In this document: positions 47,503 through 55,719 of the stretch, in pieces | Numbering within the stretch: position 1 is the stretch's first letter | Layout: each line of letters opens with the position of its first letter | Assembly: GCF_019753765.1 (NCBI RefSeq) | Contig: NZ_JAIJZW010000015.1 | Location: 1-64,000 of the forward strand | DNA: 64,000 nucleotides | Source: Microbacterium marinilacus | Lineage (GTDB): Bacteria; Actinomycetota; Actinomycetes; Actinomycetales; Microbacteriaceae | Direction of reading: 5' to 3' | The notes under the pieces: model-generated | Told to the model about the DNA's origin: nothing | Seen by the model: only the letters and a program-made list of their open reading frames with translations | Database searches by the model: none | Made by a program: the position numbers and the translations under genes

Positions 47503-48096
47503 ATGTTGCAGCAGTGGGTGTCGGTGCGCACCGGCATCTCGTTGCGTGAGCGGCCTGCTCCCGGAGAGGGCCTCGGGGTGCGCGCGCTCCTGCTCGGGGA
47601 CGTCGCACGAGGCGGCGGGTACGCGCCAGGTGCGACCGTCCGCATCGGAGCCGATCTCGTCTCGCCGCAGCACGTCGTCCGCGACGGCGATGTAGTCTTC
47701 CGCTCACGCGGGCCGTACTGGAACGCCTGGTGCGCCGATGCCCTGAGCGAGCCCCTGGTCGCCGTCGCCCCGCTGTTCGTGCTGCGCACAGCCACCGAGG
47801 TCGATCCCAGCTATCTGTGCTGGTGGATCAACGGGCCGGTGGCACAGCGCTACTTCGCCGCGGAGGCGATGGGCACGGGTGTCCAGATGATCACCAAGAA
47901 CGTGCTGCTGGCGCTGCCGTTCGATCCCCCTCCGCTCGCGACGCAACGCGCGACCGCCGCCGCGGGATCCCTCGCCCTCCGCGAACGTGCGCTCACCGAC
48001 CGTCTTGCGACGCTGCGGCACGACCTCGTCACGGCTCATCTCGTGCAGCACGCGCGCGCCACCGACCCCCTCACCGACAGGAACACCGACGCATGA
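47503..48096 (+). CDS. HsdS-like protein with a single target-recognition domain
   Basis: This 197-aa protein resembles half of a type I specificity subunit. LGVRALLLGDVARGGGYAPG and DGDVVFRSRGPYWNAWC start a recognition domain, and PSYLCWWINGPVAQRYFAAEAMGTGVQMITKNVLLALPFDPPPLATQ is the family's C-terminal half. A helix (SLALRERALTDRLATLRHDLVTAHL) like the conserved spacer helix closes it. There is no second domain. It overlaps hsdM by ATGA and precedes it, although a full-length hsdS exists downstream. It may dimerise to give an alternative specificity, or be a control subunit. Confidence 0.72.
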   Translation: MLQQWVSVRTGISLRERPAPGEGLGVRALLLGDVARGGGYAPGATVRIGADLVSPQHVVRDGDVVFRSRGPYWNAWCADALSEPLVAVAPLFVLRTATEVDPSYLCWWINGPVAQRYFAAEAMGTGVQMITKNVLLALPFDPPPLATQRATAAAGSLALRERALTDRLATLRHDLVTAHLVQHARATDPLTDRNTDA

Positions 48097-49613
48097 CCGC
48101 CGACACCGTCACCCAGCAGCGCATCAACCAGGCCGCGTGGGCCGCGTGCGACACGTTCCGGGGAGTCATCGACGCCACGCAGTACAAGGACTACATCCTC
48201 GTGATGCTGTTCCTGAAGTACATCTCCGACATCTGGAACGACCACCGCGATCAGTACGAGCAGCAGTTCCACGGCGACGAGCGCAAGATCACGACGCGCT
48301 TGCAGCGAGAACGCTTCCCCCTGCCGGCAGGCGCCAGCTTCTACGACCTGTACCGTCAGCGCAAGGCCGACAACATCGGTGAGCTCATCAATGTCGCGCT
48401 GGAGGCCATCGAGGAGGCGAACAAAGCCAAGCTCGACGGCGTCTTCCGCAACATCGACTTCAACTCGGAGGCGAACCTGGGTCAGACGCGAGAGCGCAAC
48501 CGGCGGCTCACGCACCTGCTCGAGGACTTCCACAAGGCCGACCTAGACCTCCGCCCGTCGCGCGTCGGCGACGACATCATCGGCGAGGCCTACATCTACC
48601 TGATCTCGCGATTCGCCTCGGACGCAGGGAAGAAAGCCGGCGAGTTCTATACGCCCGGCTCGGTATCGACCCTGCTCGCCAAGCTTGCAGCCCCCCGCCC
48701 CGGCGACACGATCTTCGACCCGACGTGCGGTTCGGGCTCGCTCCTGGTCCAGGCCGCGGCCGAGGTCGGCTCGAACAACTACCGGCTGTTCGGGCAGGAG
48801 GTCAACGGCGCCACCTGGGCGCTCGCCCGCATGAACATGTTCATGCACGCGAACGACGCGGCGACGATCGAGTGGGGCAACACGCTCACGGCGCCGACGC
48901 TGCTCGAGAACGACCGGCTGCGGCAGTACGACGTCGTCGTCGCCAACCCGCCCTTCTCGCTCGACAAGTGGGGCGCCGAGTTGGCCGAGACCGATCCGTT
49001 CCGGCGGTTCTGGCGGGGCGTGCCCCCGAAGAGCAAGGGCGACTACGCCTTCATCACGCACATGGTCGAGGTCGCCAAGCGCGAGACGGGGCGCGTCGCG
49101 GTGATCGTGCCGCACGGGGTGCTGTTCCGCGGAGGGGCGGAGGGGCGCATCCGCAAGGCGCTCATCGACGAGAACCTACTCGACGCGGTGGTCGGGCTGC
49201 CCGCGAACCTGTTCACCACCACCGGCATCCCGGTCGTGATCCTCGTCTTCGACCGCTCTCGCGAGGAGGGCGGCGCGAACGCGGAACGCGACGACGTGCT
49301 GTTCATCGACGCGAGCCGCGAGTTCACGCCCGCCAAGTCGCAGAACCTGCTGGACGATGCGCACATCGCGAAGATCGTGGAGACGTACCGCGAACGCGCC
49401 GAGGTCGAGCGCTACGCGCATCGCGCGACGCCCGAGGAGATCGCGGGCAACGACTACAACCTCAACATCCCACGCTACGTCGACACGTTCGAGCCCGAGC
49501 CCGAGGTCGACATCGCCGCGGTGCAGCGCGAGATCGACGCCGTCGAGGCGGAGCTCGCCGAGGTGCGCACCCGCATGGCCGGCTACCTGAAGGAGCTGGG
49601 GATCGATGGCTGA
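48093..49613 (+). CDS. hsdM: Type I restriction-modification system methyltransferase subunit
   Basis: This 506-aa N6-adenine methyltransferase has an N-terminal helical domain (RINQAAWAACDTFRGVIDATQYKDYILVMLFLKYISDIW). The catalytic domain carries AGEFYTPGSVSTLLAKL, DPTCGSGSLLV (SAM binding, about 209) and NPPFSL (catalytic NPPF, about 285). A C-terminal part with VGLPANLFTTTGIPVVILVF and a helical tail (about 460-506) contacts HsdS. It methylates the recognition site and with HsdS forms the core enzyme. It overlaps the HsdS-like gene by ATGA. Confidence 0.95.
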   Translation: MTADTVTQQRINQAAWAACDTFRGVIDATQYKDYILVMLFLKYISDIWNDHRDQYEQQFHGDERKITTRLQRERFPLPAGASFYDLYRQRKADNIGELINVALEAIEEANKAKLDGVFRNIDFNSEANLGQTRERNRRLTHLLEDFHKADLDLRPSRVGDDIIGEAYIYLISRFASDAGKKAGEFYTPGSVSTLLAKLAAPRPGDTIFDPTCGSGSLLVQAAAEVGSNNYRLFGQEVNGATWALARMNMFMHANDAATIEWGNTLTAPTLLENDRLRQYDVVVANPPFSLDKWGAELAETDPFRRFWRGVPPKSKGDYAFITHMVEVAKRETGRVAVIVPHGVLFRGGAEGRIRKALIDENLLDAVVGLPANLFTTTGIPVVILVFDRSREEGGANAERDDVLFIDASREFTPAKSQNLLDDAHIAKIVETYRERAEVERYAHRATPEEIAGNDYNLNIPRYVDTFEPEPEVDIAAVQREIDAVEAELAEVRTRMAGYLKELGIDG

Positions 49614-54700: not shown

Positions 54701-55009
54701 GTATCGCACGACGAGCCGTCCGCCGCCGTGTTCGCGGAGATCGTCGGACGTTTCCCGGTCTCCGGCGCGTCACCGCGCGTCGACATGAGCTTTGTGGCCG
54801 ACGTCGCCGTCGAGCTCGTCTGTCTCGCGCGCGACCGGCACATCGTCGGATTCTGGGAGAACGTGGAGGCCCAGCACGACCTCGCCAACGCCATCGACGA
54901 CTACCTGTGGAATGAAGTCGAGGATCGGCACAGCGTCGCGCTCTCCCCGGAGGACGAGGACGCGATCCGCGGCGCCGTGCTGAGAATCGCGAAGGCGAGA
55001 TTCCCGTGA
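51794..55009 (+). CDS. hsdR: Type I restriction-modification system endonuclease/translocase subunit
   Basis: This 1071-aa motor nuclease has a PD-(D/E)xK nuclease at about 150-172 (RLDVVAFVNGIPFVTIECKRPSDP). Helicase motor motifs follow: HTQGSGKSLTM (Walker A, about 334), LVLVTDRDDLDVQ, VDESHRSH (DExH, about 436), IGFTGTPL, ILIVVSKLLTGFDVPRNTVLYLCR and HTLLQAIARVNRLYEP. A long C-terminal helical domain binds the core enzyme. All motifs are intact, so restriction should be active. The ATG at 51794 is 124 bp after the DUF3800 gene. Confidence 0.95.
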   Translation: MTEATFDPSEKWQSQVPAVQMLAALGFRPLSPADALAMRGGRRRTPILEDVLAERIVALNRVRRRGQEYPLDLADAQEAIRRLLPQPALRTGAATLNRAVYDDLVRGRAIPKTIDGTSISPQVRYIDWTDPANNTYHVTVEYEVERTGSTHANRLDVVAFVNGIPFVTIECKRPSDPIANADHQLLRYQRQEEIPAYFSFAQLLIATNRREAHYATAGTPKRFWTPWREARDAEGAVAEAVRRPLAPGTLADLFGGPAEQLESLEKRVPSEQDRLLHALCRPERLLELVRTFTVFDSGVRKVARHQQYFAVKETIDRVTSCAAGRTRPGGVVWHTQGSGKSLTMVMLGKALTFDPRIDEPRLVLVTDRDDLDVQIRDTFRACELEPVRARTGKHLAELIATRAPLITTIVNKFENAAAHLEGTTPDDDPNVFVLVDESHRSHSAKSGEYGAFARRMHRALPAASFIGFTGTPLLKREKNTMRTFGPLIHRYTMKDANDDKAVVPLLYEGRHIEKQLASDAVDAWFDRISAGLTTEQRADLKRKFSRADRIAGAGQVIRAKAFDISEHYRQHWQGTGLKAQLVAPDKASAIRFHHVLQEIGHVTSEVVISAPGDDETIEAADQESRELVRRFWNDTMRQHGTEGAYLRDVIDAFKTPGGPEILIVVSKLLTGFDVPRNTVLYLCRTLREHTLLQAIARVNRLYEPPHDTDPAKDFGIIVDYEGLLQELDQALTAYSALDGFDEGDLLGAVVSVRDEIARLPARWDAVWAVFNGVARNDQEAMEQHLEPIDVREEFYERLTAFTRTLHIALSSATVEDAVPADRLDRYKADWAAFIQLRRSVQFRYNERVDLRDYEPKVQHLLDDHVLALPARVVIDALDLTDPAAVHDAAVEQGGTPAARADRIASAARRRISERIDEDPALYRRFSELIEETIEAHRAHRISEVDYLARMRAHADDVAHARRHDDLPSQVSHDEPSAAVFAEIVGRFPVSGASPRVDMSFVADVAVELVCLARDRHIVGFWENVEAQHDLANAIDDYLWNEVEDRHSVALSPEDEDAIRGAVLRIAKARFP

Positions 55010-55719
55010 CAACGATGACCGCCGCCTACGGTGCCGGCACGATCACCTTCACCCTCCGGCGTCGCCCGCGCACCACCTTGGACATCGCCGTAGACGACGA
55101 AGGAAACGTGATCGTCACCGCACCGGAGCACGCGGCGAACGAGGAGGTCGTGCGACGGGTCGCGCGGCACGGACGCTGGATCACCGCGCAGCGGCAGTAC
55201 TTCGAGCAGTTCCGGCCGCGCACCCCGCCACGCACGTGGCTGCCCGGGGAGACACATCTGTACCTGGGACGGCAGTACCGGTTGCGCGTAGGCAACCCCG
55301 ACGCGACCCATCGTCGCGTGCGCCTGATCCGCGGATTCTTGCTCGTCGACGGCGTGCGCTTCGGAGACGCCGACAAGACCGAGCGGCTGGTGCACGCCTG
55401 GTACCGGGATCGTGCGACGGAGGTCTTCGCGCGGCGACTTCACGAGTGCCTGCGGCGTTTCGACACAGCGGCGGTCGCCCCCGTCTCGATGCGCATCCGG
55501 GAGATGAGCACGCGTTGGGGATCGATGTCCCCGGGTGGCGTCCTCAGCCTCGCGCCGGCCCTCGTCCGCGCGCCGTCCGACGCGATCGACTACGTCATCA
55601 CGCACGAGCTCGCCCATCGCATCGAGCCGCACCACGGACCGGCGTTCTGGCGCGTGCTGGCCGCGGCCATGCCGGATTACGAACGCCGCAAGACGCGGCT
55701 GGAGCGTGCTCTGGCCTGA
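55006..55719 (+). CDS. YgjP-like (DUF45) zinc metallopeptidase family protein
   Basis: This 237-aa protein has TLDIAVDDEGNVIVTAPEHAANEEVVRRVARHGRWI in the N-terminal half. The C-terminal half carries RIREMSTRWGSMSPGGVLSLAPALVRAPSDAIDYVITHELAHRIEPHHGPAFWRVL, where HELAH and a downstream His form the zinc site. This is the DUF45/YgjP (M48-related) family that often follows hsdR. GTG at 55006 overlaps the hsdR stop by 4 nt, so it belongs to the same operon. Its part in restriction, perhaps turnover of HsdR, is inference. Confidence 0.9.
   Translation: MTTMTAAYGAGTITFTLRRRPRTTLDIAVDDEGNVIVTAPEHAANEEVVRRVARHGRWITAQRQYFEQFRPRTPPRTWLPGETHLYLGRQYRLRVGNPDATHRRVRLIRGFLLVDGVRFGDADKTERLVHAWYRDRATEVFARRLHECLRRFDTAAVAPVSMRIREMSTRWGSMSPGGVLSLAPALVRAPSDAIDYVITHELAHRIEPHHGPAFWRVLAAAMPDYERRKTRLERALA

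Follow-up and report, generated by a model that had tools for sequence, protein, structure and literature searches.

A half-HsdS protein at the head of a type I restriction operon may act on bipartite repeats in its own promoter

The 64,000-nucleotide stretch of Microbacterium marinilacus DNA analyzed here (the window) contains, at positions 47503-55719 on the + strand, a restriction operon whose first gene encodes a half-size specificity subunit, or half-HsdS. Behind it lie, in order, the genes for HsdM, a 47-aa open reading frame (ORF), a full HsdS, a DUF3800 protein, HsdR and a YgjP-like protein, all of them open. It appears moderately probable, from sequence comparison and by analogy with other systems, that the half-HsdS, probably together with HsdM, recognizes operators in its own promoter and thereby regulates the operon. 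The gene order and strand are as the original prediction had them, and so are the overlaps that it placed at every junction but one: these measure 4 or 8 nt each, the exception being the junction of DUF3800 and hsdR, which lie 124 nt apart. Judged by family tests, which HsdM, the two-domain HsdS and HsdR all pass, the operon is a type I restriction-modification system, a known class of phage defense that cuts DNA. HsdM contains HsdM_N and N6_Mtase domains (TIGR00497 hsdM, 281 bits against a cut-off of 242.75), the full HsdS matches Methylase_S (PF01420) in two stretches and PADLOC Specificity_I over 5-390, and HsdR contains HSDR_N and SWI2_SNF2 (PF04313, PF18766, PF22679; TIGR00348 hsdR, 417 bits against a cut-off of 284.55). 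The DUF3800 and YgjP-like proteins correspond to PF12686 and PF01863 (3e-50), respectively, and each family has a single match in the genome, inside the operon.

The half-HsdS, which starts at the ATG at 47503 (an in-frame TTG is also present at 47467), has no Pfam Methylase_S match at E 0.1; its sole support from family searches is PADLOC Specificity_I (5e-16), and by profile it matches HsdS chains in the PDB at 1e-12. Its structural model (pLDDT 88.7) consists of one recognition domain and a 43-residue helix (145-187), and the best structural matches are HsdS chains and the single-domain protein Esub1. Conservation was assessed in 15 loci whose HsdM is at least 70% identical to that of the window, with the truncated locus L007 included and with domain limits of our own choosing (comparison loci are cited by L numbers). 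In this set the recognition domain of the half-HsdS displays 48.7% mean pairwise identity and its own helix 38%, as against 18.8% for one domain of the full HsdS and 33.0% (median 24.4) for the other, and 27 columns are invariant across 14 half-HsdS sequences. The corresponding values are 83% for HsdM, 75% for HsdR (13 loci) and 62% for YgjP (14 loci). For the window alone the contrast is weaker, at 36% for the half-HsdS domain versus 22% and 37% for those of the full HsdS.

The original prediction supposed that two HsdS-type proteins with three recognition domains could provide two specificities. The three domains are present, but that of the half-HsdS is conserved where both full-HsdS domains differ, and the conserved inverted repeats in its promoter, described below, fit a fixed target better than a second variable specificity. 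Because its domain is conserved while the others vary, the half-HsdS is hardly an additional variable specificity on the sequence evidence; its target is probably fixed and regulatory, and a second, constant methylation motif may also derive from it.

In relatives of the operon, the region upstream of half-hsdS typically contains the inverted repeat CTGTA-N7/8-TACAG. The search for the repeat covered 34 viral contigs, 13 genome or plasmid loci and the window, 48 loci in all, which reduce to 21 at 80% half-HsdS identity; left out of this set are the truncated L007, the broken L083 and genome and plasmid loci of greater distance. Allowing up to one mismatch, the repeat is found within 110 nt upstream in 16 of the 21 non-redundant loci, compared with a mean of 0.19 and a maximum of 2 in 300 dinucleotide shuffles, and 14 loci have two copies (shuffles, 0). 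In all 14 of these the spacer is identical in both copies, being N8 in eight loci and N7 in six, where agreement by chance would be expected in about half. In 15 of 16 loci, 8-14 nt separate the end of the nearer copy from the start codon, with starts set by alignment; in L078, whose start is uncertain, the distance is 23 nt. The farther copy is situated, as judged by eye, upstream of a TTGAC box, and this location upstream of the apparent promoter indicates a DNA site rather than an RNA hairpin. A LexA-type operator was considered and set aside: the E. coli LexA box is CTGT-N8-ACAG, and the repeats, written in the same manner as CTGT-N9/10-ACAG, differ from it in spacing.

The CTGTA repeat is scarce in whole genomes. 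There are 1-3 sites per genome in six genomes, and since a backward control gives 3-28, the motif is rare rather than enriched. The operon promoter accounts for both sites in genome G786, for two of the three in G688 and for one of the two in G689. Thirteen further upstream regions, among them L146 and L148, mostly contain inverted repeats near the promoter with differing half-sites (no shuffle control applies to these). The half-site is GCATCA, present twice, in Proteus and Providencia, which share an identical sequence, GCACCA in Komagataeibacter and Acetobacter, GCATGA in Gluconobacter, GCAGCA in L104, GCATTA in Methylobacter and Methylomonas L154, and GTTAGA in L088; TCAGTA also occurs, and the upstream region of L108 displays no convincing repeat. 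Matches to TGCANNA-N7-TNNTGCA number one in the L104 genome (2.7 Mb), one in each of the L114 and L115 plasmids, two for L152 and none for L153.

These data bear on an alternative in which the half-HsdS and HsdM form an additional methyltransferase, or restriction, specificity directed at a palindromic sequence, working beside the full HsdS. Half-HsdS proteins can dimerize into active enzymes, as in NgoAV and the engineered CC398 protein, the repeats have the form of half-HsdS targets, and genome-wide methylation is compatible with promoter control. A recognition domain that is conserved rather than diversified argues against a second specificity, however, as do the two similarly placed motif copies in the operon promoter of 14 of 21 loci; moreover, a 10-bp motif that occurs 1-3 times per genome in six genomes is too rare for useful restriction, although the true core could be shorter. 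Overall, this alternative seems rather unlikely.

In the window, the 39-nt gap between the end of the upstream gene and half-hsdS contains a related repeat, CGGTA-N6-TACTG (Table 1), which is the only C.GTA-N6..8-TAC.G site in the 64 kb. A longer pattern, GCNGTA-N6-TACNGC, occurs once in the 3.89 Mb genome, at this same site (backward control, 3), and among 20000 shuffles of the 100 upstream nt, 93 (0.5%) contain C.GTA-N6..8-TAC.G. As evidence for an operator of the window operon, this is suggestive only.

In the mechanism proposed here, a pair of half-HsdS subunits, held together through their helices and most likely bound to HsdM, would recognize the bipartite inverted repeat: CTGTA-N7/8-TACAG in the alphaproteobacterial and viral-contig relatives and probably CGGTA-N6-TACTG in the window. 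Operator binding would regulate transcription of half-hsdS, hsdM, hsdS, cargo, hsdR and ygjP, and the regulation is probably autorepression because one repeat copy lies at the start region. Meanwhile, HsdM with the full HsdS would methylate genome-wide and HsdR would restrict. The half-HsdS is proposed as the autoregulator because of the form of the repeats, because fixed-specificity DNA recognition is expected of no other core protein, and because the layout resembles that of the RptR system discussed below; form, position and analogy are thus what the proposal draws upon. From these we infer that the half-HsdS binds the repeats, with or without HsdM, and likewise the sign of the regulation and any methylation of the operators. 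Conceivably, and more tentatively, the half-HsdS and HsdM bind and perhaps methylate the paired operators as an epigenetic self-switch, which could delay restriction until the genome of a new host has been methylated.

Several observations weigh against autoregulation by the half-HsdS. The consensus repeat is absent from five of the 21 loci: the window, L081, L101 (which has CAGTA-N8-TACTG), L146 (which has ATCAGTA-N7-TACTGAC and ATCAGTA-N7-TACTGAT) and L148, where nothing clear is found upstream. The site in the window is single, has an N6 spacer and a changed half-site, and the search pattern was widened to N6 after the site had been seen; in addition, a consensus promoter scan reported none upstream of half-hsdS. 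The single CTGTA sites of genomes G000, G718 and G687 lie elsewhere than in the operon promoter. In the distant repeats the division into arms and spacer (N5, N7 or N9) was our choice, and a rule that half-sites end in A is weak, given that the engineered target ACC-N5-GGT ends otherwise. The half-HsdS is also absent from L089 (Deinococcus), L111 (Klebsiella), which has a transposase-like reading frame upstream, and L112 (Ruegeria); 350 of the 492 plasmid records with a related HsdR are from Klebsiella, of which one was read and has no half-HsdS, and a half-HsdS match at E 1e-3 is found in only 22 plasmid records. Finally, loci with more similar half-HsdS proteins also have more similar operators (Mantel r 0.73; 28 loci, one operator per locus), but the relation to HsdM identity is stronger (Mantel r 0.83). 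The partial correlation for the half-HsdS given HsdM is 0.02 (p 0.39), and that for HsdM given the half-HsdS is 0.57; with the former near zero, recognition is inseparable from co-inheritance.

That the operator sequence tracks HsdM better than the half-HsdS would suit a different arrangement, in which the repeats are bound by a host or plasmid regulator, or by HsdM in another complex, and the half-HsdS serves in assembly or as a decoy, titrating HsdM. Single-domain proteins of this kind can have other partners, as suggested by the crystallization of Esub1, the best Foldseek match, with Prx. One host regulator is made less likely, however, by the spread of the CTGTA repeat, which is present on plasmids and chromosomes of several alphaproteobacterial genera as well as on viral contigs. 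Furthermore, no other core protein would be expected to read DNA with fixed specificity, and in their bipartite form and spacer lengths the repeats agree with half-HsdS targets. A different binder is accordingly judged unlikely, and recognition by the half-HsdS itself is the reading retained here.

The system belongs, as far as sequence comparison indicates, to a horizontally moving group of type I systems. Among the 42 loci obtained by searching the DUF3800 protein against one genome per species, L005, L006 and L007, all from Alphaproteobacteria, contain half-HsdS, HsdM, HsdS, DUF3800 and HsdR in the same order, with an HsdM 72-77% identical to that of the window; the sequence of L006 ends before YgjP. 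Recurrence at this level of identity in Alphaproteobacteria argues that the order is not a chance array. HsdM, DUF3800, HsdR and YgjP were also seen in L010 (Thiogranum). In L007 (BAL199), hsdR is broken (9787-11482) and the half-hsdS frame is shortened, while hsdM, hsdS, DUF3800 and ygjP are retained. The original prediction had looked to other actinobacteria for the same gene order, and no comparably close system was found in the genus, family or phylum; the order turned up in Alphaproteobacteria instead. Within the genus, 46 of 294 other genomes have an HsdR match at E 1e-50, at 29-41% identity; in the family, HsdM is matched at E 1e-150 in none of 397 other genomes; and in the phylum, one of 395 has an HsdM match at E 1e-120, at 58% identity.

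Nineteen plasmid records were read through to the hsdR-ygjP end, namely 13 of the 492 with an HsdR match, three found by HsdM and three by half-HsdS. The half-HsdS precedes hsdM in 16 of the 19, counting L083, where both genes are in pieces. For genome and plasmid loci together, a half-HsdS-type ORF is next upstream of hsdM in 28 of the 31 with sequence at that position, or in 25 of 28 once three loci chosen by their half-HsdS matches are removed; in L103, L108 and L116 the assignment was made by place, size and sequence as judged by eye, or by annotation, rather than by BLAST. Given the counts of plasmid records above, the half-HsdS characterizes a portion of the wider HsdR family rather than the whole. 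On the IMG/VR contigs (L117-L150), HsdM follows the half-HsdS in 31 of 34, and the remaining three end within 600 nt. A decaying leftover of a duplicated hsdS might be expected to lack a Pfam Methylase_S match, to occur in broken or truncated copies such as those of L083 and L007, and to be absent from some relatives; all of this is seen, but the linkage to hsdM just described, on genomes and plasmids as on viral contigs, and the invariant columns of the protein make such an origin very improbable.

Comparison of these loci separates a recurrent core from variable passengers. HsdM, HsdS, HsdR and YgjP recur, usually behind the half-HsdS. Between hsdM and hsdS (slot A) the relatives have RhuM (L005 and L077-L080, with more found by tblastn), GIY-YIG (L088, L116), MazEF (L089) or nothing. 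Between hsdS and hsdR (slot B) they have Shedu with HAD, HAD alone, Shedu with DUF3800, DUF3800 or nothing, and in other loci TIGR04141/DUF6119, a kinase, Abi, Fic, or YecA with a cold-shock gene. It had been proposed that the tight coupling of DUF3800 and the peptidase implies roles in the system itself. For DUF3800 that proposal is weakened by the changing contents of slot B and by the 26 of 42 close DUF3800 loci in which the available DNA has no HsdM or HsdR match to the window proteins, a count in which some contigs are short and from which distant types could escape. The variation in slot B suggests that DUF3800 is swappable cargo, one passenger among many. Conserved linkage supports a role in the system for the half-HsdS, where it is usual, and for the peptidase: a YgjP, SprT or M48 protein is encoded after hsdR in all 19 plasmid records and in all 28 genome and plasmid loci with sequence at that position. 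What the role of YgjP might be, for instance in HsdR turnover, is a guess. On the viral contigs, YgjP is present in 12 of the 15 loci that carry HsdR. As a general type I companion YgjP was discounted: of 29 type I loci of the genus at greater distance, 5 have it, but in many of these 29 the HsdR match stops well short of the gene end, leaving little sequence past hsdR.

Table 1. Features of the operon and its upstream region, in window coordinates
Feature	Position	Strand	Basis or remark
Candidate operator GCGGTACGCACGTACTGC (CGGTA-N6-TACTG)	47469..47486		39-nt gap, upstream gene end to half-hsdS
Possible promoter: TTGCGG 47467-47472, 17 nt, TATGGT 47490-47495; start codon 8 nt on	47467..47495	+	by eye, weak
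Half-HsdS (197 aa) with a single target-recognition domain and a long helix	47503..48096	+	family, profile, model
HsdM, N6-adenine methyltransferase subunit, 506 aa	48093..49613	+	family search
47-aa ORF, likely rhuM remnant (slot A), two palindromes	49606..49749	+	short DNA matches
Full HsdS, two target-recognition domains, 395 aa	49746..50933	+	Pfam, PADLOC
DUF3800 protein, suggested slot B cargo	50926..51669	+	GTG start proposed; ATG 50893 possible
DUF3800-HsdR gap with conserved element (about 51683-51740) tracking this DUF3800 subfamily	51670..51793		regular expression
HsdR, endonuclease and motor subunit, 1071 aa	51794..55009	+	family search
YgjP/SprT-like zinc metallopeptidase (HELAH), the group's constant gene	55006..55719	+	Pfam, loci comparison

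The 47-aa ORF occupies the place of rhuM in relatives and overlaps hsdM by 8 nt, as in L005. Short stretches of its DNA align with rhuM genes, 29 nt at 93% with that of L077, 27 nt at 89% with that of L079 and 18 nt at 94% with that of L005, and intact rhuM genes reside at the same place in L005 and L077-L080. The peptide has no Pfam RhuM match, so its identity comes from the DNA matches, which indicate that the ORF is likely a rhuM remnant; another such remnant is present in L007. Some 185 nt from the start of rhuM, 19 of 22 distinct genes have a coding palindrome whose 10-nt arms differ by no more than one mismatch, for example in L077:4468-5493, L079:4508-5542 and L080:5922-6950. The mononucleotide-shuffled control segments give 2.3%, and the rhuM genes are mutually related. 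At least six different palindrome sequences occupy this place, and different peptides are consequently encoded. The remnant in the window retains two palindromes.

Downstream of DUF3800, a conserved element of about 55 nt is present in 38 of 43 loci of this DUF3800 subfamily as identified by regular expression (the incomplete L040 is left out) and in none of three loci of another subfamily. It occurs with or without nearby restriction genes, as at 51683-51740 in the window, L005:7322-7394 and L043:9741-9812. Among 30 of the 38 loci, both sides vary in two of the three pairs of the outer stem, but shifting the pairing by 2 columns leaves the covariation score nearly unchanged (0.260 versus 0.271), with 61% versus 91% paired. 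RNAalifold gives no consensus structure for the element, and seven loci of it have no Rfam match at the gathering cut-off. On the opposite strand there is a match to Rfam BjrC68 that falls short of the family cut-off (E 3.5e-5 in L005 and 0.0073 in the window), and the gap at 51670-51793, taken alone, has only matches below the family cut-offs.

The GC content of the operon, 0.64-0.71, is below that of most of the window (mostly 0.70-0.78). Upstream is an amidohydrolase gene, which ends at 47463, and downstream a MOSC/oxidoreductase gene on the other strand. No tRNA is present in the window, and no known RNA is indicated in the interval 47000-56500, which has no Rfam match with an E value of 1 or better. 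Recombination between half-hsdS and hsdS as a source of phase variation was rejected, as the 25 longest of 109 inverted pairs never join 47503-48096 to 49746-50933; family searches identify no recombinase among the operon genes.

Parts of this arrangement are already in print, as judged from the titles, abstracts and passages of the open-access literature to which the citations here refer: type I restriction-modification itself, and the hsdS-hsdR cargo and M48 peptidase of the RRDM island. Within the open-access titles, abstracts and passages searched, nothing was found that describes a conserved half-HsdS as the leading gene, with bipartite repeats in its promoter, the RptR paper (PMC12255303) being the nearest; the literature on RhuM with HsdS, on YgjP or SprT with restriction and on DUF3800 with an RNA motif likewise yielded no other description of this arrangement, and nothing relevant was found on the function of Esub1. 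The conserved half-HsdS and its repeats offer a concrete, testable mechanism, which would link the specificity subunits of DNA methyltransferases to transcription factors, an analogy raised in PMC6158711. If the proposal is correct, a restriction system could regulate itself through a spare part of its own apparatus, and the repeats would predict the target half-sites of many recognition domains from sequence alone. With DUF3800 suggested to be cargo, YgjP becomes the accessory gene of first interest.

Similarities to known systems can be drawn at several levels. In the RRDM island of enteropathogenic E. coli, which encodes RptR, HsdM, HsdS, DarTG, HsdR and an M48 protein, RptR represses its own promoter via repeats (PMC12255303). 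The order regulator, hsdM, hsdS, cargo, hsdR and M48 is matched here if the half-HsdS takes the place of the regulator, and in both systems there are repeats in the promoter of the first gene. The two differ in that RptR is a 9-kDa four-helix repressor with TAGCTA repeats, in contrast to the half-HsdS and bipartite repeats with 6-8 nt spacers found here; TAGCTA is absent from 47440-47502 and the first gene is not RptR, a comparison confined to this locus, with no RptR search elsewhere in the genome. Control by an upstream gene is also known from Mycoplasma gallisepticum, where a repressor lies upstream of a type I hsd locus, and from type II C proteins, which have operators in their own promoters (PMC12707154). 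In each case, as proposed here, the controlling gene is upstream of or within the restriction operon, but the C proteins act through helix-turn-helix motifs, unlike the specificity-subunit fold of the half-HsdS.

At the level of the protein, the closest likeness in shape is Esub1 (PDB 8vsq and 8vsr, "Co-crystal structure of Prx with Esub1"), a single-domain HsdS-like protein of 198-206 residues (Z 17.8-18.4) that is nonetheless only about 20% identical to the half-HsdS. A natural half-HsdS is known from NgoAV of Neisseria gonorrhoeae, whose 208-aa truncated HsdS has the target GCA-N8-TGC (PMC9577141). NgoAV thus shares with the present system a one-domain HsdS, and its bipartite palindromic target resembles the promoter repeats described here. 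In NgoAV, however, the protein is the product of a frameshifted hsdS located after hsdM and is the specificity subunit in use, whereas the half-HsdS of the window is encoded by a separate gene before hsdM, beside a full HsdS. An engineered half-HsdS dimerizes and has the target ACC-N5-GGT, and such half-HsdS dimers have been likened to transcription factors (PMC6158711).

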